DNA from: Actinomycetota bacterium
GTDB taxonomy: Bacteria; Actinomycetota; Geothermincolia; Geothermincolales; RBG-13-55-18
Assembly (NCBI GenBank): GCA_014360655.1
Contig: JACIXC010000014.1
Location: 1-64,000, forward strand
Direction of reading: 5' to 3'
Length of the DNA: 64,000 bases
Made by a program: the position numbers and the translations under genes
Notes under the pieces: generated by a model
What the model was told of the DNA's origin: nothing
Databases searched by the model: none
The model's input: only the letters and a program-made list of their open reading frames with translations
Shown: in pieces, positions 27,240-38,116 of the stretch
How the letters are laid out: each line of letters starts with the position of its first letter
Position numbering within the stretch: the stretch's first letter is position 1

Positions 27240-27359
27240 GTGTCACTGCTGGATAATAAACTTCTAATGATAGTTGCGAGGTTGGGAGAGGCGATATTTG
27301 AAAAAGGCGGTATATATGATAAAAATGTGATGGTGAAGCATGTGGGGGTTGCCTGTTGA
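27240..27359 (+). CDS. Small ORF overlapping the cas3 start (39 residues)
   Basis: A GTG at 27240 is preceded by CGGAG. The frame reads MSLLDNKLLMIVARLGEAIF and ends at TGA 27357-27359, which overlaps the TTG start of cas3 at 27356-27358. A stop-start overlap of this kind usually means translational coupling. The product is not recognised. It could be a leader peptide setting cas3 expression, a small protein, or a remnant of a longer gene, as the frame is closed upstream by a TAA directly before GTG. Confidence 0.4.
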   Translation: MSLLDNKLLMIVARLGEAIFEKGGIYDKNVMVKHVGVAC

Positions 27360-28927
27360 GGGTTCAAGGTAGAGCAGCGGAAGTTGTCGATTCGCCGTTC
27401 GGCAGACTCCACCCGTTCCAGATTGACTTAATCGAGGCCTTGCGTGATCCAGAAGTTGGCATGATAAAGGTGGAGGCGCCGGTTGGCGTGGGCAAGACCA
27501 CCGCCATCCGAAAAGCGTTGCAGTACTGCAACGCACCGGTGATCGCCACCTTCCCGACGACCATACTCGTGAATGCCCAGTCAGCGAGCATTTCAAGGGG
27601 CGAAAGTGTTTATCACTGGCCGTACGACACGAAACCCCACGACCGCAAATACGACCTTTTCGTTGCTGAATACACGTCGCGGTCTTTGTTCGATCTTGCA
27701 ATGAGAAATTATGGCGAAGTATCGAAACTGGCGCGTGGGGAAATACTCTCAAGGATTTTCTGCCTCGCACCATTCATAGGCGGTAAGAATATCGTCCTCA
27801 CCACGCCCGACGTGTTGTGGTTGATATATTCCAAAAAATACAAGAACTTCGCCAGGCTCCAGGAGGCGTTGGCCGGTTCAATAGTATTTTTTGACGAGTT
27901 CCACTGCTACGCGGATCTTTCTAATTTCTACAGGCTGCTCAACAAGCTCGGTGAGGGAAGGGTGTCGAAGGTGGTGCTCATGTCGGCCACTCCCTATATG
28001 CGGGAAGATATTATGTTGGATTTTAAAGGAAGTATTGTGGATATCTCTTTTCAAGAAACGGATATGCAGGAGGTAGAGGGAAGGGTCTTTAATCATCCCT
28101 TGAGGGTGGAAATCGCCGAGTTTGAATACCGAAATGCGTACAAGCTGCTGGAACGGTTGAGAACCGCGCTTCCTGACATGGCGCGCCCGACGGCGGTGAT
28201 TTTCGATTCCATATTTCGACTCATGCAGGTCGAGTCCGTTCTGAGAAACGAGTTCCAACACTTAAGGTTTCTGCGGTATGACGGGATGGTGAAGGATGCA
28301 ATAGATCTCGATGAAAACAGCGTTGTACTCGGAACTTCCTCCATCGAGGTTGGGATAAGCATGGATTTTTCCTCCCTCGTCTTCGAGGGCAGCAGCTGGA
28401 CAGCGGCCATCCAAAGGTTGGGCCGTGTGGGTAGGTTGCGTCCCGGTCAAGCCTTGCTTTTAAGCGACCGGAGCTTCAAACCTTACCGGCCTGAGAGAGA
28501 CGAGATACCAAGGGTTGAATTCGAAAGGATTCTGCGAGAATACTTGCCTGATCCCTGTCAGGACTGGACAAGCGGCGAACTGTTCAGGGGGGACACGCCG
28601 AGCTTCCTGCTTGTGGATCCGCGTGGTGATTGCTATATATACGGGCCGGGCATCTTTTCCATGTACGAAGTCGAGGATAAAGATGATATTCCACGCGATG
28701 CGGACGACCTGGTCAGGTTGCTGCACGAATTCGGTGTGAGGGATGAGGATATCCCGGCGGTCATGATGAGGGTCGCTTTGTTTCCCGTGGCGGGAATCGT
28801 TAGGGCGCATAGGTTCCGTGACCGCTACGTGCCCGTCGTTTCCGTTAAGTCGGCAGAAGACGAGTGGGTGGTAAAGCTGGCAGACAAGGAATATTTCTAC
28901 TTTAAAAGGGAGGTACTTGATGATTGA
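27356..28927 (+). CDS. cas3: Type I-D CRISPR helicase Cas3' (no HD domain)
   Basis: A 523-residue superfamily 2 helicase that would unwind target DNA for the type I-D effector. Walker A is APVGVGKTT (residues 41-49, Lys47), the DExH box is DEFH (180-183), motif III is MSATPY and motif VI is QRLGRVGR from residue 353. There is no HD nuclease domain, as expected in type I-D, where the nuclease sits on Cas10d. The start is TTG with GGGGG seven bases before it; no ATG is available between the previous in-frame stop and this point. The stop overlaps the next start. Confidence 0.9.
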   Translation: MRVQGRAAEVVDSPFGRLHPFQIDLIEALRDPEVGMIKVEAPVGVGKTTAIRKALQYCNAPVIATFPTTILVNAQSASISRGESVYHWPYDTKPHDRKYDLFVAEYTSRSLFDLAMRNYGEVSKLARGEILSRIFCLAPFIGGKNIVLTTPDVLWLIYSKKYKNFARLQEALAGSIVFFDEFHCYADLSNFYRLLNKLGEGRVSKVVLMSATPYMREDIMLDFKGSIVDISFQETDMQEVEGRVFNHPLRVEIAEFEYRNAYKLLERLRTALPDMARPTAVIFDSIFRLMQVESVLRNEFQHLRFLRYDGMVKDAIDLDENSVVLGTSSIEVGISMDFSSLVFEGSSWTAAIQRLGRVGRLRPGQALLLSDRSFKPYRPERDEIPRVEFERILREYLPDPCQDWTSGELFRGDTPSFLLVDPRGDCYIYGPGIFSMYEVEDKDDIPRDADDLVRLLHEFGVRDEDIPAVMMRVALFPVAGIVRAHRFRDRYVPVVSVKSAEDEWVVKLADKEYFYFKREVLDD

Positions 28928-31517
28928 GGACGTGCGATTGTTTCTCGAGCCACAGCTGGGTTTCCTGGCCAAGTCCAGCGGGGAACCTCTCTGGATGCAC
29001 CACTTCACCGTGTATAAGGTATGCATGAGGCTGCTCGAGATGCTCCCTACCTTTCCGCAGGAGCTCGTGGTTCCTCTTCAGCTGGCATGTCTCATCCACG
29101 ATATGGGCAAGATGCGCGAGGATGCACAGGCGGTGCTGTCAGGTGAAAAAGAAGGCACTCGTGTAAAGCACAAGCTGAAGTATGAAGAGGTATACGATTA
29201 CATTATAAATGCCCATGGGCTCGCGGTTTTGCCGAGCGATAAGCAAGTGAAAGCCGCTTACGATATTGCCGTAACACACCACAGCGTCAGTGATGAGGAT
29301 GTCATAAAGAACAGCACAACATATTCTTCTTCGGGAGTCCTTCTTCTGCGCGTCAGCGACTGGCTCGCTTCCATGGATGGCGTAGACGTGGGCACCATTG
29401 AACGCATCAACGCCATGTTTACCGTGCCGGGTTCTTCTGAGCCCTTGCTGCATCTCACCTATTTCGAGATAGGGAGGGAACCCGGACCCTCCACGTCGAT
29501 AATCGCCACAAAGACCTTGGAGGCCTTTGAGGAACTGGGTTATTTTAGGTTGGTTCTCTTCTCCAACGCCGCCGTGGTGGCGAAAACCGGCAAGGCGACT
29601 TACCCGGACCCGAAGGGTATTGCAAAAAAAGTTTATAGGTATGTGGTCGAAAACACTATGAAAAACATCAGCCCTGATTATGGAACGGACATGCTGCTAA
29701 TCGGTTTTAGCGCCGAATTTCCGGATGATTACCTTGTAATTCATAAAGCCAGAGTAACCGAAGATTTGGCCAATGTCGAGATGAGGGCCCGTGCTTTTTT
29801 CAAGCTTCTGAGCGAGTTGATGAAGCTGCACGGTTGCGGACCGAGTTCCCATAGGAACAACTGGCAGATGAACGTTGTGCACGGTGTCGTCATAGGAAGA
29901 AGCGCCATCTCCAAGGCGGCTAAGGAGTGGGCTTTGAGGATGAATTATGACTTGCCAAAACGTTCGGATGGAAAGGTCGAACGTCGGGAAGCCCTCTCAT
30001 TTCTGATGGACAAACTGACTCTCAAGGATTTATTGAACGAAGACGTCCGCAAGGCCCTCGAAGATATAGGGCAAGCGCCTGAAGAAAATGCTATGGGGAA
30101 GGAGTTAAGTGGCTTCAAGGCGGAAGAGCTATATGATTTTCTCCTTGCTCTTGCGTGCGCCGCACGTAGGGAAGGTGATGCGGTAGAAGAGCGGCTGAAA
30201 GAGATCATCGCCATGATATCGTTCCCCGTGGAAACGGATTTCCAGGAGATTGCTACACAAAGGTTACAGGCTTATAAAAGGTACAAGAAGAACCCCGATT
30301 ATCGCAAGGGATGTTGCGAAATGTGCGGATCAGCTTTTACCCAGAAGCTTGGGCAGGAAGCCCCTGACGGCTTCATTCAATGCTTTTCTTACGTTAAATC
30401 GCAACCCACGTCGCCACGGGCGGTGTGTTATCTTTGCGCATTCGATTTGAGCCTTGTGCGAAGCGGCAAGCAGGGTGGTGTGGTTTCTACGACACTGTGG
30501 ATTACTTCAAAAGTAGAGGTAGGGTTGGAGGAGAAGCTTTTCGACCTGGTTAAACGCATCGAAGACGGTTTCCTTACGCCCAGGCGGTTAAAGCTGATAG
30601 TAAGCCCTAAGGACGACATGGGTTTACCTCTGCCGGCTGGATTGAAGCTGCCTTTGCCCAAGGGTGCATTAGGGCAGGAAAATGACATTGACAAGCGGGA
30701 GGCTTTTCTTTACAGTCCTTTCGGTATTTTTGCAAGCCTTGAGTCTGCTCGGGGGACTTTTTCGTTAAAGAATCAGCGAGCCGTATACGCGCCGCTTTAT
30801 GACCTTATGAGCCTTCTCGGCTTTGGTGTTTGCATAACCAACGATCTTGAGTTCAGATATGGCCTTTTCGGGGAGAAAAGGGTTGCGACGCTGCGGACTT
30901 TTTACGATGCCGTTTCGGTGCTCCTGCTTGCCAAGACTTTGGCATCAATAAAAAGAAATCCGCACTGTTTTGCGGCTGGCATTATCGCCAATCAACCAAG
31001 CCTGGCCATTGGAAGGTCTATGGAAAGCGACGAGAAGGGAAAACCGCTGCTTGAAAAAGAGCAGCTGTCTTATTACTTGCAGGCGTTATTGAGGGCAGAC
31101 CGCCCTATCTTGAAAGGGGGAATGATAACCATGGGCGATTTATTGAAAGACGCAGCATTTTTCGCGCGCAATATTCCTAAATATTGCGTGGAACCGGAAG
31201 CGCGTTATGACTTTCGAAAAAACCTGACCAAGCACAAGGCCACCAAGGCGGTTCAAGCGCCTCTGAACGAGATGATGCTCGGCCGCGATTTCGACACTGC
31301 CATGGCAAAACTGCTGGCACAGCTATCGGTAAAAATAGGGAAGGAGGAAAGGAAGGGCATGGACGAATTCGTGAGGAGAAGCAAGGAAATTCTCATGAGA
31401 TATTTCAAGCTGCGACAGGAGAGCTTCTCCGACTTTCTTAAAGCGAAAAATGCGCTTATGAACGGCATCTACGCCTTTACTCGCTATGAGGATTTGGACA
31501 TGATTTTTAAAGACTAG
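28920..31517 (+). CDS. cas10d: Type I-D large subunit Cas10d (Csc3) with HD nuclease domain
   Basis: 865 residues from the ATG at 28920, which overlaps the cas3 stop by eight bases and follows GGGAGG. The N-terminal HD domain shows LIHDMG (His60, Asp61) and VTHHS (His120-His121), plus an early His pair (MHHF). A four-cysteine zinc site lies at about Cys466/Cys469 (CCEMC) and Cys503/Cys506 (CYLC). The helical C-terminus matches the small-subunit-like end of Cas10 proteins. Cas10d organises the effector, recognises the PAM and cuts DNA with its HD site. A nested start for Cas11d is listed separately. Confidence 0.9.
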   Translation: MIEDVRLFLEPQLGFLAKSSGEPLWMHHFTVYKVCMRLLEMLPTFPQELVVPLQLACLIHDMGKMREDAQAVLSGEKEGTRVKHKLKYEEVYDYIINAHGLAVLPSDKQVKAAYDIAVTHHSVSDEDVIKNSTTYSSSGVLLLRVSDWLASMDGVDVGTIERINAMFTVPGSSEPLLHLTYFEIGREPGPSTSIIATKTLEAFEELGYFRLVLFSNAAVVAKTGKATYPDPKGIAKKVYRYVVENTMKNISPDYGTDMLLIGFSAEFPDDYLVIHKARVTEDLANVEMRARAFFKLLSELMKLHGCGPSSHRNNWQMNVVHGVVIGRSAISKAAKEWALRMNYDLPKRSDGKVERREALSFLMDKLTLKDLLNEDVRKALEDIGQAPEENAMGKELSGFKAEELYDFLLALACAARREGDAVEERLKEIIAMISFPVETDFQEIATQRLQAYKRYKKNPDYRKGCCEMCGSAFTQKLGQEAPDGFIQCFSYVKSQPTSPRAVCYLCAFDLSLVRSGKQGGVVSTTLWITSKVEVGLEEKLFDLVKRIEDGFLTPRRLKLIVSPKDDMGLPLPAGLKLPLPKGALGQENDIDKREAFLYSPFGIFASLESARGTFSLKNQRAVYAPLYDLMSLLGFGVCITNDLEFRYGLFGEKRVATLRTFYDAVSVLLLAKTLASIKRNPHCFAAGIIANQPSLAIGRSMESDEKGKPLLEKEQLSYYLQALLRADRPILKGGMITMGDLLKDAAFFARNIPKYCVEPEARYDFRKNLTKHKATKAVQAPLNEMMLGRDFDTAMAKLLAQLSVKIGKEERKGMDEFVRRSKEILMRYFKLRQESFSDFLKAKNALMNGIYAFTRYEDLDMIFKD
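31131..31517 (+). CDS. Candidate nested small subunit Cas11d, internal start in cas10d
   Basis: Within cas10d a strong purine-rich site, AAAGGGGG at 31114-31120, precedes in-frame ATG codons at 31122 and 31131. Starting at 31131 gives 128 mainly helical residues ending with the cas10d stop. Internal translation of a small Cas11 subunit from the large-subunit gene is documented for type I-D and other type I systems. The spacing favours 31131. No separate small-subunit gene exists in this operon, which fits. Confidence 0.55.
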   Translation: MGDLLKDAAFFARNIPKYCVEPEARYDFRKNLTKHKATKAVQAPLNEMMLGRDFDTAMAKLLAQLSVKIGKEERKGMDEFVRRSKEILMRYFKLRQESFSDFLKAKNALMNGIYAFTRYEDLDMIFKD

Positions 31518-31575
31518 AACTTAAGGGCTAGGAGGCAGAGATTTATGGTCGGTGATTCTTGAAAAGGAGGTTAAG

Positions 31576-32355
31576 ATGAGATTCTATTCAGACGTAAGCA
31601 ACCTGCCCAGGGCACGCTATCTGCAGGTGGTAACTGCTTTGAGGCTTCTTGATCCCGCCATCATTCGCTCCAACGAGCCTGAAGAGGTGCTCACCTTCCG
31701 TTACCGGGAACCTTTAGGGGAGCGTTTCATCATCCCCTGGCGAAAGGTAAAGGCGAAGCTGCGGCGCCTGGTGGCCGAGAGGGGACGCGACCTGGGTTTT
31801 GGGAAAAACTGTTTTTTGAAGGAATCCTTGTGCCTGGCATGCCCGACTTGTCTTCTCTTCGGGGGTACGGGCGAAACCGGCACCGCGAAAGTGGATTACA
31901 ATCTCCTCTCCAGGGTCCTGGGAGAGACCTTTATTTCTAAGGGAGAGACCATCGATCCATTGAACTACACGGCTAATGCGGTAGGGGAGATGAAGCATAC
32001 CACGGGACAGGCGTTGATGACCCTGGTGACCGTGCCCGCGGATACCGAGTTTATCGGGGTGATAACATTGAAGGATCCGACACCCGAAATGGCGGCCCTC
32101 CTAGTCGATGGCTTGGAAAGGTTTACCCGCATAGGCGCTCGCAGCGTGGAGTGGGGTCGTTGCAGGATGGAGATTTTGGGAGGCGGGATTTTCGATCGTG
32201 AAGTATATTCCGCCTATGAGTTATTGCGGGAAGACGGGTTAGACGAGGTTTCCAAACTGAAGCTGGAGCTTCCTCCCGTTAAGGAAGCGTTCATGCGTCT
32301 GCAAAAAGAAACAGACGCATTGGTAAAGGAAATCAAGGAAGCGTCGAATGACTAA
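31576..32355 (+). CDS. csc2: Type I-D backbone protein Csc2 (Cas7 family)
   Basis: 259 residues from the ATG at 31576, chosen because AAGGAGG lies at 31564-31570; a GTG at 31552 is open but lies before that site. Cas7-type proteins polymerise along the crRNA. Visible family features are RYREPLGERFIIPWRKVKAKLR, the cysteine-rich ESLCLACPTCLLFGGTG and TRIGARSVEWGR. It is shorter than the roughly 330 residues I expect for cyanobacterial Csc2, so some loops are missing. The stop overlaps the csc1 start by eight bases. Confidence 0.88.
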   Translation: MRFYSDVSNLPRARYLQVVTALRLLDPAIIRSNEPEEVLTFRYREPLGERFIIPWRKVKAKLRRLVAERGRDLGFGKNCFLKESLCLACPTCLLFGGTGETGTAKVDYNLLSRVLGETFISKGETIDPLNYTANAVGEMKHTTGQALMTLVTVPADTEFIGVITLKDPTPEMAALLVDGLERFTRIGARSVEWGRCRMEILGGGIFDREVYSAYELLREDGLDEVSKLKLELPPVKEAFMRLQKETDALVKEIKEASND

Positions 32356-33022
32356 AATGATAATATTCCGTTACAACCTGGAGCTCGAGGACTTCCTCTT
32401 CTATGCTCGCGAAGCGATAGCCGGTACGGTGACCCCCAGGTGCCTGCATGCCACGGCTGTGAATTACGCTCTGGCCTATGCCATGAACCTGTTTCCGGAG
32501 AAGCAGCCGTATTTTATGGCGACTTCGGAAGGCAGAAACGTCCCGGAGTATTCCAGCTCCCTTATACCCGGAGCGGGTTTTTACGCCACGCCGGCGAGTT
32601 TGGAAAGTTCGTATGGAATGGAGCTTGTGACCTTCCTCATTAAAGGCGATAGGGAGGGGTACGGCAGCATCACGGGCAAAGGCGGAGAAGTGCTGCGTGT
32701 AAGCAGGGTTTCCATGCTCCCGCCCGGCACGGTTTTTACCGGCTTTATTATCTGTAAGGAAGCAGTTGAATTCCCGGAACGCATACGCCTTGGCCGTTTT
32801 CGCTCCCCGGTTAAGGTGAGTTTGCAGGAAGCGAATAAGGTGTTACCTGGGGAAGGAGGAGTGGCGAGTCACCCCGTGGATCCACTGGTGACCCACGCGA
32901 AGAAAGGGGTTCTGATTTCCATGCTTCCTTATCCGCTGGTAAACCGCGCATGTGCAGACCGCTGCTTGGCTGTTGATATCGGCGGAAAGCAATGTTATGT
33001 GGCTCTCCCGGATGCGTGGTGA
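32348..33022 (+). CDS. csc1: Type I-D Cas5-family protein Csc1
   Basis: A 224-residue protein starting ATG ACT inside the end of csc2. The N-terminus IIFRYNLELEDFLFYAREAI and CLHATAVNYALAYAMNL fit Csc1, the Cas5-like subunit that holds the crRNA 5' handle. Its position between csc2 and cas6 is the usual one in type I-D. The stop shares one base with the following ATG, indicating coupling. Confidence 0.85.
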   Translation: MTKMIIFRYNLELEDFLFYAREAIAGTVTPRCLHATAVNYALAYAMNLFPEKQPYFMATSEGRNVPEYSSSLIPGAGFYATPASLESSYGMELVTFLIKGDREGYGSITGKGGEVLRVSRVSMLPPGTVFTGFIICKEAVEFPERIRLGRFRSPVKVSLQEANKVLPGEGGVASHPVDPLVTHAKKGVLISMLPYPLVNRACADRCLAVDIGGKQCYVALPDAW

Positions 33023-33708
33023 TGTATATGGATGCTTTACCCTGGGCTTGCATCGTGTTTGAGCAGTTGAGGAAGGTATGCCCAAACCCCGGCACACTTC
33101 GCAGGTGGGTGAACGCCGCTTTCCCGGGCAGGCCCCTCCTTCACCAACACGACCCGGTTTCGGGGAAATCCATTTTTCAGTACCCGATGGTGCAATATAA
33201 GAGTTACCGGGGCGTGCCCTTGCTTTACGGCATAGGCGATGGAGTGGAAGAGATAAGGGCGATTTACGGCAACATCCATGAAGCCGAGGTAAGGCTTGGC
33301 CCTCACGTGATCAGGGAAATCGTCCTGCGTGAGGGTAGCGCGAAGATTTCGGCAAGTGAACCGAAACAATACAGGTTTCTCACGCCATGGTTGGCTTTCA
33401 ACCGCGAAAATTACATCGCTTTCCGTGAGACTGCCGACTGGGCGGAAAGGAAGTCGCTGCTCAACGGCATTCTTGTTGGCAATATACTGTCCATTGCCAA
33501 GCCCTTGGGTATCGTGATCGATTTTCCGTTGAAGGTGAGGTCGCTGGTAGACATGACGTCCTTGCAACTTTCTCGCCACGACCTGGTCGAGCACGGTTTT
33601 CTCGGTGAGTTCGAGGCCAATATCGAATTGCCGCCACTCCTCGGGCTCGGCAGGCATGTCTCCATCGGTTATGGAACGGTATTGGGGGAGGGGTGGGATT
33701 GGATTTAG
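33022..33708 (+). CDS. cas6: CRISPR repeat endoribonuclease Cas6
   Basis: 228 residues from ATG 33022, which overlaps the csc1 stop by one base; ATG 33028 is also possible. A RAMP-type protein that cuts the precursor within each repeat. The C-terminal glycine-rich loop is clear (LPPLLGLGRHVSIGYGTVLG). A likely catalytic histidine cannot be assigned with confidence; candidates are His50-His52 in LLHQHDP and His97 in GPHVIREIV. With a repeat ending ATTGAAGC, cutting would leave that eight-base handle on each crRNA. Confidence 0.85.
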   Translation: MYMDALPWACIVFEQLRKVCPNPGTLRRWVNAAFPGRPLLHQHDPVSGKSIFQYPMVQYKSYRGVPLLYGIGDGVEEIRAIYGNIHEAEVRLGPHVIREIVLREGSAKISASEPKQYRFLTPWLAFNRENYIAFRETADWAERKSLLNGILVGNILSIAKPLGIVIDFPLKVRSLVDMTSLQLSRHDLVEHGFLGEFEANIELPPLLGLGRHVSIGYGTVLGEGWDWI

Positions 33709-34709
33709 TGATTGACTCCTTTGGGGCTTCTCTCCGAAGGAAAAGCAACTGCTTCCTTGTCAGAAGGGGCGATGATGAGGAAGAAATATGCGCCGATGAC
33801 GTTACGCAAATCATCCTGAGCCTGGGGACGCATATCTCTACGGACGCCATCGCTCTTGCGGCGGATAAGAACGTTGATATCGTGTGTCTATCCCGGGGCG
33901 GCAAGCCAGTCTCGAGGATTTGGCCCTGCAAGTTTGGGGGGACTGCGTTGACACGACGTAAGCAGATGGAAGCACTCTATACCAGTAAGGGCGTTAAGGT
34001 CGCGGAAGCGATGATTAAGGCAAAGGGTTTAAACCAGGCCTATTTCCTTAAGGCCCTCAACAAAGAGCGCGAAATAGCTTCCGTTGAGGAAGCTGCGGAG
34101 GTGATACTGAAGCGTGTTAAGTCGGCTTCGTGGGACGCGGAAAATATTGAGCTTGTCAGGAACGACATGTTTGCCCTGGAAGGCGGCTGTTCGCGACTCT
34201 ATATCCAGGCGCTTACTTCCATTATCCCAGAAGAATACGGCTTTTTCGGTCGTGAAAAAAGACCCCCAAAGGATCCCGTGAACGCGGCGCTTTCCTATGG
34301 CTACGCGGTGCTTTACGGAAAAGTCGAAAGGGCATGCATACTTGCCGGGCTCGATCCCTTTCTGGGTTATTTGCATACGGATAGGTTCGGCAAGCCTTCC
34401 ATGTCACTCGACCTCATGGAACCCTTTCGACAGCCTCTAGTAGATCGCGTTGTCGTGACGCTCTTTGTGAAAAGGTCTTTTAAACATTCTGATTTCATGC
34501 CGTACGCGGAATCGGAGGGATTGTATCTTAATGAAACGGGCAGAAAAAAGCTGCTCGAAAAGTTGTATGAAAGGTTTGACAAGGAAATACAGCATAAAGG
34601 ACGAAAGAGGAAATTCCAAGACATTATCCTGGTCTGCATAAGAGACGTTGCGGCTTTCCTGCTTGATGATGCGAAGAAAGTGGACGGATTTATATATAAA
34701 TGGAATTAA
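33693..34709 (+). CDS. cas1: CRISPR integrase Cas1
   Basis: A 338-residue integrase for new spacers. Metal ligands are Glu163 (ALEGGCSRLY), His228 (GYLHTDRFG) and Glu243 (LDLMEPFR), in the usual order. The C-terminal extension KRSFKHSDFMPYAESEGLYL is typical. The GTG start at 33693 overlaps the cas6 end by 16 bases and follows GGGGGAGG; a GTG at 33708 is an alternative. It is directly followed by cas2 and cas4, forming a complete adaptation module. Confidence 0.95.
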   Translation: MGLDLVIDSFGASLRRKSNCFLVRRGDDEEEICADDVTQIILSLGTHISTDAIALAADKNVDIVCLSRGGKPVSRIWPCKFGGTALTRRKQMEALYTSKGVKVAEAMIKAKGLNQAYFLKALNKEREIASVEEAAEVILKRVKSASWDAENIELVRNDMFALEGGCSRLYIQALTSIIPEEYGFFGREKRPPKDPVNAALSYGYAVLYGKVERACILAGLDPFLGYLHTDRFGKPSMSLDLMEPFRQPLVDRVVVTLFVKRSFKHSDFMPYAESEGLYLNETGRKKLLEKLYERFDKEIQHKGRKRKFQDIILVCIRDVAAFLLDDAKKVDGFIYKWN

Positions 34710-34710
34710 T

Positions 34711-35019
34711 ATGAAACTTCTTGCTATTTATGATATCACAGACGACAGGTTGCGCAATCGCGTGGCGCGAAAGTGCAAGGATTTTGGATTGGCAAGAATT
34801 CAGAAGAGCTGTTTTGCTGGGGAATTGACTCAAAACAGAATGGAGATGCTGAGGATTGAGTTAGAAAATCTTCTCAAGGAAGAAGATCAGCAATATATGA
34901 ACGAATATGATGCCATCTATATATTGCCTTTGTGTGAGACTTGTTTCATCAAGAAGATTCTTTTAGGTCATAAAAGATCCTTTCCCGATAAGAACAAAGA
35001 CAGGCTTAAGGTATTCTGA
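34711..35019 (+). CDS. cas2: CRISPR adaptation protein Cas2
   Basis: 102 residues starting one base after the cas1 stop. The ferredoxin-like fold begins MKLLAIYDITDDRLRNRVAR, with the conserved Asp at the end of strand 1, and has a second strand DAIYILPLCETC. It forms the Cas1-Cas2 integration complex. The frame is open further upstream inside cas1, but the family's N-terminus starts here. Confidence 0.95.
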   Translation: MKLLAIYDITDDRLRNRVARKCKDFGLARIQKSCFAGELTQNRMEMLRIELENLLKEEDQQYMNEYDAIYILPLCETCFIKKILLGHKRSFPDKNKDRLKVF

Positions 35020-35023
35020 TGCC

Positions 35024-35626
35024 ATGAACAAAGAAGGTTTCTGGTCTGTTTCGGATATCCTCAACCATGCCTATTGCCCTTGGATTACTTATCATTGGCA
35101 TGTGCTGAAAATTCCACAAAGCAAAACGACCAAAACAGAAGAAGGTATTAACAAGCAGCGTGAGTATGCCAGGAAGGTTAGAAAACACCCTGAAAGAGGT
35201 GTGGGGGGCATAAGGGGTGCGAAGTTCATTCCGGACCGGTCAATTCGATCTGTGAGGTTAATGCTTGCCGGCAAATGTGATTATGTCCTGTACCCAGGAA
35301 GCGTACCTGCGCCATTGGAGATTAAGAATGGCAAGATTCCTCCGCGATCGCCGCATGGGAACACAATACTTCAACTGGCATGTTACGCGATAATGCTCGA
35401 GGAAGAGTTGAAAGCCGAAGTTCATGTCGGATACATTTATTATTTAAGGGATGGCCTTACGCAGAAGATTGAGATATTCGATAAGGATAAGAGAAAGGTA
35501 GAATCTTTGATTGCCGAGATGAACTCGCTCCTTGAAAACGAAATAGTGACAGGAAAGCCGATGTCCTGGCGATGCTGCTGGGATTGCTGCTATCGCAAGA
35601 TATGTGCCCTTGGTGGTGGGTCTTAA
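35024..35626 (+). CDS. cas4: CRISPR-associated exonuclease Cas4
   Basis: 200 residues, four bases after cas2. RecB-type nuclease with an iron-sulphur cluster: first Cys in NHAYCPWITYHW, the rest in RCCWDCCYRKIC at the C-terminus. Nuclease motifs are GKCDYV and the APLEIKNGK segment with its Glu-x-Lys, followed by QLACYAIML. Cas4 trims pre-spacers and fixes PAM choice and orientation. It is the last gene before the leader and array. Confidence 0.95.
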   Translation: MNKEGFWSVSDILNHAYCPWITYHWHVLKIPQSKTTKTEEGINKQREYARKVRKHPERGVGGIRGAKFIPDRSIRSVRLMLAGKCDYVLYPGSVPAPLEIKNGKIPPRSPHGNTILQLACYAIMLEEELKAEVHVGYIYYLRDGLTQKIEIFDKDKRKVESLIAEMNSLLENEIVTGKPMSWRCCWDCCYRKICALGGGS

Positions 35627-35711
35627 GGAATTTTCTCCAAAAATATACCCACAGGGTTTTCTTGAGTTTGCGATATTAAAAATCCCAGCATATATTATAT
35701 TTCTAAAAGCT
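35627..35711 (+). promoter_or_regulatory. CRISPR leader with precursor promoter
   Basis: An AT-rich 85-base leader between cas4 and the first repeat. TTGCGA (35668-35673), 17 bases, then TATATT (35691-35696) form a plausible promoter whose start near 35703 would lie just before the first repeat. The plus-strand direction agrees with the ATTGAAGC handle at the 3' end of each repeat. New spacers should therefore enter at 35712. Confidence 0.7.
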
Positions 35712-38116
35712 GTTGCAGTAATAGAGCCAGGAAAACAAGCATTGAAGCAGTGAATGCTCAAACCTCTCCTCCGTTTTAAGGAAGTTGCAGTAATAGAGCC
35801 AGGAAAACAAGCATTGAAGCTTGACCTGCGGGCCAGGCAGCAATGCGGTAAAATGTCAGTTGCAGTAATAGAGCCAGGAAAACAAGCATTGAAGCACCTC
35901 CCTTTCAAATTAATCCAGCAAAAGCGTATATCGTTGCAGTAATAGAGCCAGGAAAACAAGCATTGAAGCAAAACCTGTTTGCGAATAGGCTGCGGTTACC
36001 GCCCGCGTTGCAGTAATAGAGCCAGGAAAACAAGCATTGAAGCTATATATTTTAGCCCTCGCTCGTGACACAATTTCTGGTTGCAGTAATAGAGCCAGGA
36101 AAACAAGCATTGAAGCCATTTGACTGCCGATCAACTGAATCCATCGCTCCACAGTTGCAGTAATAGAGCCAGGAAAACAAGCATTGAAGCTTGACCTGCG
36201 GGCCAGGCAGCAATGCGGTAAAATGTCAGTTGCAGTAATAGAGCCAGGAAAACAAGCATTGAAGCACCTCCCTTTCAAATTAATCCAGCAAAAGCGTATA
36301 TCGTTGCAGTAATAGAGCCAGGAAAACAAGCATTGAAGCAAAACCTGTTTGCGAATAGGCTGCGGTTACCGCCCGCGTTGCAGTAATAGAGCCAGGAAAA
36401 CAAGCATTGAAGCTATATATTTTAGCCCTCGCTCGTGACACAATTTCTGGTTGCAGTAATAGAGCCAGGAAAACAAGCATTGAAGCCATTTGACTGCCGA
36501 TCAACTGAATCCATCGCTCCACAGTTGCAGTAATAGAGCCAGGAAAACAAGCATTGAAGCAGGTCTGCTCCTACGGTGACGAAAATCGAGCCGATACTAG
36601 TTGCAGTAATAGAGCCAGGAAAACAAGCATTGAAGCTGGTACAGCCCGACATTTAATGGTTGGCCCGCCGAAGGTTGCAGTAATAGAGCCAGGAAAACAA
36701 GCATTGAAGCTGCTGGCGCTGATCGACACGGCCACGCAATTCACGGAAAAGTTGCAGTAATAGAGCCAGGAAAACAAGCATTGAAGCTCTGGAATGGGTA
36801 CGAAGTGGGGGAAATCCGCGTCATAGTTGCAGTAATAGAGCCAGGAAAACAAGCATTGAAGCACTCGCCGCCCGAGATACAAGTTTCATACTCGAAAGGT
36901 TGCAGTAATAGAGCCAGGAAAACAAGCATTGAAGCTTCAGTATCGCGAATTTCTCTCCGAGGCTTTTTGTTGTTGCAGTAATAGAGCCAGGAAAACAAGC
37001 ATTGAAGCTTCATCATCCTTCCTCCCCCCCTTCTCTCCGCCCTGGGTTGCAGTAATAGAGCCAGGAAAACAAGCATTGAAGCAATCGCCATCCGATTATA
37101 AGGGATGTAAGACTGACAAGTTGCAGTAATAGAGCCAGGAAAACAAGCATTGAAGCTGCCACGGTTTCGGCGCGCTTTCTGGAGCCGTACACGGTTGCAG
37201 TAATAGAGCCAGGAAAACAAGCATTGAAGCCACATTGCGCTGTAGCAGGTTCGACCATTGCTCCTTTAGTTGCAGTAATAGAGCCAGGAAAACAAGCATT
37301 GAAGCACATAATAGGTATTATCGGCGGTTAGATTAAGGTAGTTGCAGTAATAGAGCCAGGAAAACAAGCATTGAAGCAGGTTTTCAAGCTCTTGTGAGCT
37401 CGCCCCGCAGACCAGTTGCAGTAATAGAGCCAGGAAAACAAGCATTGAAGCATCGAATGCATCTGGGCCCTGGTTCAGCAAAGCCAGGTTGCAGTAATAG
37501 AGCCAGGAAAACAAGCATTGAAGCAGCATAATATCGGTCTTCCCATCGCATTAACTTCGCCCGGTTGCAGTAATAGAGCCAGGAAAACAAGCATTGAAGC
37601 TCTGGGCGCTGGGTCATCTCCCATGACTACAAGCATCACGTTGCAGTAATAGAGCCAGGAAAACAAGCATTGAAGCATAAGCAACCTAAAGCTCACCGAG
37701 GGGAAGTGGGCGGGGTTGCAGTAATAGAGCCAGGAAAACAAGCATTGAAGCAGATATCGCAGCATGGCATTGGCATACTCCTCTACCGTTGCAGTAATAG
37801 AGCCAGGAAAACAAGCATTGAAGCTCGTAGACGACGCACACCCGATTTTGGACCTGTTGAGTTGCAGTAATAGAGCCAGGAAAACAAGCATTGAAGCTTG
37901 GCCCTCTCCACGCCGTCGCTCGAGAACACGCTGGTTGCAGTAATAGAGCCAGGAAAACAAGCATTGAAGCTGATACAGTCCGACATTTAACGGCTGACCC
38001 GCCGAAGTTGCAGTAATAGAGCCAGGAAAACAAGCATTGAAGCGAGGGAACCACTAAAGGCGTAGGTTCTGGTATATGAGTTGCAGTAATAGAGCCAGGA
38101 AAACAAGCATTGAAGC
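35712..38116 (+). CRISPR. Type I-D CRISPR array: 33 repeats, 32 spacers
   Basis: The 37-base repeat begins GTTGCAGTAATAG, continues through AGCCAGGAAAACAAGC and ends ATTGAAGC. Starts run from 35712, 35784, 35859, 35933 to 38007 and 38080. Spacers are 35-40 bases. All 33 repeats that I read are identical, including the last, so there is no decayed terminal repeat and the array may have been cut at its distal end. Only 27 spacer sequences are distinct because spacers 7-11 repeat 2-6. Spacers 13 and 31 are variants of one target. Antisense frames through the array (poly-LFSWLYYCN) are artefacts of a repeat without stops. Confidence 0.98.
35821..36560 (+). repeat. Perfect 370-bp tandem duplication within the array
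   Basis: Bases 35821-36190 (spacers 2-6 with their repeats) recur at 36191-36560 (spacers 7-11) with no difference seen. The block covers five repeat-spacer units. Recombination between repeats is the natural cause; assembly error is possible. Confidence 0.9.

Follow-up and report, generated by a model that had tools for sequence, protein, structure and literature searches.

Synonymous variants of one coding target in two spacers of an actinomycetotal CRISPR array suggest repeated sampling

A CRISPR array in the genome of an Actinomycetota bacterium (GCA_014360655.1, contig JACIXC010000014.1, positions 1 to 64,000; this 64,000-nucleotide stretch is referred to as the window) contains two spacers, 13 and 31, that resemble each other closely without being identical, which raises the question of how a single array came to hold two versions of what appears to be the same target. 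Alignment of the two spacers revealed 31 identities over 36 positions at offset 0, that is, from the first base of each, and the differences at spacer positions 3, 9, 21, 24 and 27 (G/A, C/T, T/C, T/C and G/A, respectively) are all transitions. An earlier note on this DNA had reported the coordinates, the five transitions and the shared start base, and the alignment bore these out; the exclusive occurrence of transitions adds little, being partly forced by the two-fold degeneracy of two of the five sites.

The array is built on the repeat GTTGCAGTAATAGAGCCAGGAAAACAAGCATTGAAGC with spacers of 35–40 nt, and apart from one duplicated block, spacers 13 and 31 are the sole alike pair within it. Directly upstream and on the same strand, positions 27356-35626 are occupied by cas3d, a large-subunit gene, csc2, csc1, cas6, cas1, cas2 and cas4 (Table 1), an operon that is assigned from its profile matches to type I-D, with a divergent Cas10d-like large subunit. 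The gene of this subunit stands at the position expected for Cas10d; its product (866 aa) was without a match in Pfam, NCBIfam and the PDB sequences and gave only weak matches in PADLOC; every PADLOC match of the csc1 product was to Cas5d.

Table 1. Positions of the cas genes, the array and the spacers of interest in the window
Feature	Position	Strand	Remarks
cas3d helicase	27356..28927	+	TIGR03158 E 2.1e-28, above cut-off; PADLOC best match Cas3d
Large subunit, divergent Cas10d/Csc3, N-terminal HD region	28917..31517	+	PADLOC HD 2.3e-7, Cas10d 2.4e-5
csc2 (cas7d)	31552..32355	+	TIGR03157 73.5 bits vs cut-off 38; PF18320
csc1 (cas5d)	32348..33022	+	TIGR03159 40.6 bits vs cut-off 41.4 (just below); PADLOC Cas5d 5.5e-15
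cas6 (Cas6b-like)	32992..33708	+	PF17262, PF17955
cas1	33693..34709	+	TIGR00287, PF01867
cas2	34648..35019	+	TIGR01573 match from residue 22; true start probably ~34711
cas4	35024..35626	+	TIGR00372
Probable leader	35627..35711	+	31% GC vs 64% GC in the window; between cas4 and repeat 1
CRISPR array	35712..38116	+	33 identical 37-nt repeats, 32 spacers (27 unique)
Exact tandem duplication	35783..36523	+	Five spacer-repeat units (spacers 2-6 = 7-11), 370 bp
Spacer 13	36637..36673	+	37 nt; probable coding sense of target on minus strand (SAGQPLNVGLY)
Spacer 31	37971..38006	+	36 nt; synonymous variant of spacer 13

Read on the minus strand, both spacers encode the peptide SAGQPLNVGLY and all five differences fall at third codon positions, just as the earlier note had described. 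In this frame, 5 of 9.0 synonymous sites were changed as against 0 of 24.0 non-synonymous sites, which corresponds to a synonymous divergence of about 1.0 per site after Jukes-Cantor correction. The chance that five differences would all lie in one codon phase is p = 0.0063, a statistic based on only five changes and on a frame picked post hoc; in simulations that allow for six frames, random changes left at least one of the six open and without any amino-acid change in 0.6% (uniform changes) to 1.1% (two thirds transitions) of the cases. These results support the derivation of spacers 13 and 31 from homologous coding DNA that is constrained at the protein level, as previously suggested. With synonymous divergence this close to 1, the source is more likely to have been separate lineages of a virus or plasmid than recent drift or a one-step escape mutant of a single one.

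The claim that all other frames fail, with residue changes or a stop, was correct under translation table 11 and needs one amendment. If TGA is read as tryptophan (table 4), plus-strand frame 0 yields WYSPTFNGWPAE in both spacers, and the five changes are again synonymous and at third positions, since in both frames the third codon positions fall on the same bases. The plus strand would then be the coding strand; such a reading requires a recoded stop, spacer 31 having two stops in frame 0 under table 11, and when 397 same-phylum genomes were scanned, with up to 3 mismatches allowed, for a third-position-degenerate pattern spanning both frames, there was no further match. We regard a coding plus strand as very improbable.

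A mutated copy that arose from one spacer by duplication and drift inside the array would account for the resemblance in the simplest way, and block duplication does occur here, spacers 2-6 recurring as 7-11. The copies of this 370-bp block are exact, however, and the 33 repeats show no substitution in 1221 bases, compared with 5 changes in 36 bases between the two spacers (Fisher p = 1.5e-8); this invariance of the repeats excludes drift inside the array. Such drift would not yield changes that are synonymous in one frame either, and the neighbours of spacer 13 and those of spacer 31 are unrelated. Hence next to no credence can be given to an origin within the array. The proposal that the same target site was sampled twice is supported by the shared first base.

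The order of the two acquisitions depends on the polarity of the array. Between spacers 13 and 31 there are 17 spacers (14-30) with no duplicate in that stretch, so that the count given in the earlier note was right; the strictly polar growth on which it was made conditional does not hold for the array as a whole, because the exact copying of spacers 2-6 as 7-11 means that its order does not reflect polar addition alone. The duplicated block sits near the leader end. In a genome of the same family, an array of 31 spacers (G005:C10:26554-28873, L031) carries the I-D repeat with 3 mismatches and has an extra degenerate repeat beyond its cas-distal end, and none of its spacers is common to the array analyzed here. 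Both this degenerate repeat and the stretch of low GC content beside cas4 support the addition of new spacers next to cas4, and spacer 31, being cas-distal, is therefore probably older than spacer 13. As a clock, array order is presumptive.

Polarity also bears on whether a single source could have supplied both spacers, either as one element with two diverged (paralogous) copies of the gene or through one mixed infection. Taken by themselves, spacers 13 and 31 cannot tell one element from two; the 17 unrelated spacers that separate them fit separate episodes if addition was polar, and we consider a single source unlikely. It is instead quite probable that the two spacers were acquired independently, both at the same PAM site but each from a different, diverged relative of one and the same foreign protein-coding gene. 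In this scheme, the I-D adaptation machinery (Cas1-Cas2-Cas4) would have captured one PAM-defined site twice, spacer 31 stemming from one lineage and the newer spacer 13 from another. The SAGQPLNVGLY segment would have been under purifying selection while about half of its synonymous sites changed, and this selection may explain why site and PAM could still be used. We infer in this way two separate events, a mobile-element source, a GTN-like PAM, the coding strand, the polarity and a loss of interference.

GTN or GTH PAMs have been reported for the I-D systems studied so far, in which the PAM end is removed by Cas4 before integration (PMC10212523). With such PAMs, 27 unique spacers and one element of 10–40 kb, 0.07-0.37 same-site pairs would be expected by chance, a figure that drops if the spacers stem from many elements. 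The shared start base could also reflect a preferred acquisition site, or priming in which a mismatched spacer-31 crRNA directed capture at its own target and refreshed the memory; in type I priming, independently acquired spacers can share one protospacer, as recorded for the Legionella type I-C system (PMC5071653). Since the array contains a single clear same-site pair and the chance expectation is of the order given above, neither a hot spot nor priming has to be invoked, and we hold this alternative to be decidedly unlikely. Still less likely, in our estimate, is the more specific proposal that the spacer-31 crRNA primed capture in a diverged relative, so that I-D immunity would refresh its memory at a protein-constrained site that varies mainly at synonymous positions.

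Two further expectations can be stated. If a GTN or GTH PAM applies here, the target protein is predicted to continue as SAGQPLNVGLY[H/Q]T. In addition, type I systems require full pairing in the seed (PMC10212523), and one of the differences between the two crRNAs lies within the seed, at position 3, and another at position 9. Reduced interference by the older crRNA (31) against the newer, spacer-13 variant is thus probable, and the second spacer may add protection where the old one falls short.

Searches for the target gene returned no SAGQPLNVGLY in any gene in peptide-degenerate scans of IMG/VR, no match to AGQPLN[VI]GLY in GTDB contigs and no protospacer for the DNA of either spacer in phage and plasmid records. 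Patterns with up to 3 mismatches matched only spacers 13 and 31 themselves across the class and 397 same-phylum genomes, and a search for self-targeting within the own genome likewise gave no other match. With no protospacer found in IMG/VR, phages, plasmids, GTDB or same-phylum genomes, the mobile-element source, the reading frame and the PAM are putative.

Several partial matches were rejected. Matches to the QPLNVGLY pattern in IMG/VR lay in frames of just 12-31 residues, those to AGQPLN[VI]G were followed by unrelated residues, and a blastn match at 89% between spacer 13 and another genome (G013) was short, fell in an unrelated gene and is attributed to chance. Two look-alikes were considered at greater length. 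The first, a 108-aa phage protein (L063/L064) with YAGQPVNVGLYKNF, has TTT at the PAM position, and neither Pfam nor PHROG gave a convincing match for it; a relative with 62% identity reads YGQPVDVGTF, and more distant relatives are without the segment. The second, a phage head maturation protease-capsid fusion (phrog_4523; L080/L082), contains NTGQPMNVGFYDHP and carries NTGQPMNVGFYDHPVV, of which most residues were selected by the search pattern itself, and has TGA at the PAM position. GTN is therefore absent at that position in both. Neither is claimed as the target, because the patterns fix most of the matching residues and also match unrelated cellular proteins, among them a peptidase and an oxidoreductase. 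In the course of these searches, a family of small phage proteins or domains with the common core YDGTSTGG (L064:8001-8327 and L065-L071) was noted, for which Pfam and PHROG again yielded nothing convincing.

The 2.97-Mb genome harbors three CRISPR loci, namely the I-D locus, a type I-C locus and a cas6-cas1-cas2 locus with a CARF gene. The I-C array (G000:C6:87459-99076; L049, L052) comprises 173 near-invariant repeats and 172 spacers, and 11.1 kb of it, searched at the 28-mer level, matched neither phages nor plasmids; the third locus, on contig C25, has 39 repeats. Among the 232 unique spacers of the three arrays, 13 and 31 form the strongest related pair, and two other pairs exceed shuffled controls as well. 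The first joins I-D spacer 3 (D3) to a spacer of the C25 array (B29), which share 21 identical bases and encode DIRFCWINLK and DIRFCWIDFE, respectively, pointing to the sampling of the same or a homologous target by two systems in one cell. B29 lies at G000:C25:19052-19088 (L041), the I-D spacer is present twice (spacers 3 and 8, window positions 35896-35932 and 36266-36302), and a scan of IMG/VR for DIRFCWI found no convincing gene. The second pair, B37/B38, is identical at 24 of 27 positions and reads LCQNPHGYW and LRQNPHGYW, two of the three changes being synonymous by inspection; the two stand at the cas-distal end of the C25 array (G000:C25:19651-19758) and are variants of one target. Two further pairs, C26/C166 and C93/C136, are suggestive only. 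As three pairs lie above the controls, repeated sampling of homologous targets is seen several times in this genome. In addition, another contig carries, at G000:C3:80150-80330 (L050:9151-9330), two repeats left over from the end of the C25 array together with its last spacer, B38, identical over 38 nt, and a diverged copy of the trailer flank, a duplicated or moved array end.

The finding is sound and largely ordinary, since re-sampling of the same site is already known and the single pair falls roughly within chance. What it offers is a way of reading the invader from the host: from a synonymous spacer pair one obtains the strand, the reading frame and 11 conserved residues of a foreign protein that has itself not been seen, with no need for the genome of the invader. 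Pairing at the peptide level across the arrays of one genome succeeded here with at least three pairs; applied to large spacer sets, it could infer coding frames and constrained segments in the proteins of uncultured viruses.

The system resembles the type I-D systems of Synechocystis and Microcystis (PMC10212523) in its homologues of Cas3d, Csc2 and Csc1 and in its candidate Cas10d-like HD subunit, and as in these systems Cas6, Cas1, Cas2 and Cas4 adjoin one array. Unlike known type I-D systems, it has a very divergent candidate Cas10d (PADLOC E 2.4e-5), a Csc1 just under the NCBIfam cut-off, and Cas6, Cas1 and Cas2 proteins that match type I-B models best. The co-occurrence of several CRISPR systems with compatible spacers in one cell has been described (PMC8482600), as is the case here; the parts of that study considered here concern PAM-compatible arrays and describe no I-D pairing such as D3/B29. 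The closest parallel to spacers 13 and 31 is the Legionella I-C system, where two independently acquired spacers likewise fall on one protospacer site (PMC5071653). There, however, both spacers match one plasmid sequence in a laboratory assay, whereas synonymous changes separate the copies in the present array and imply that there were two source lineages.
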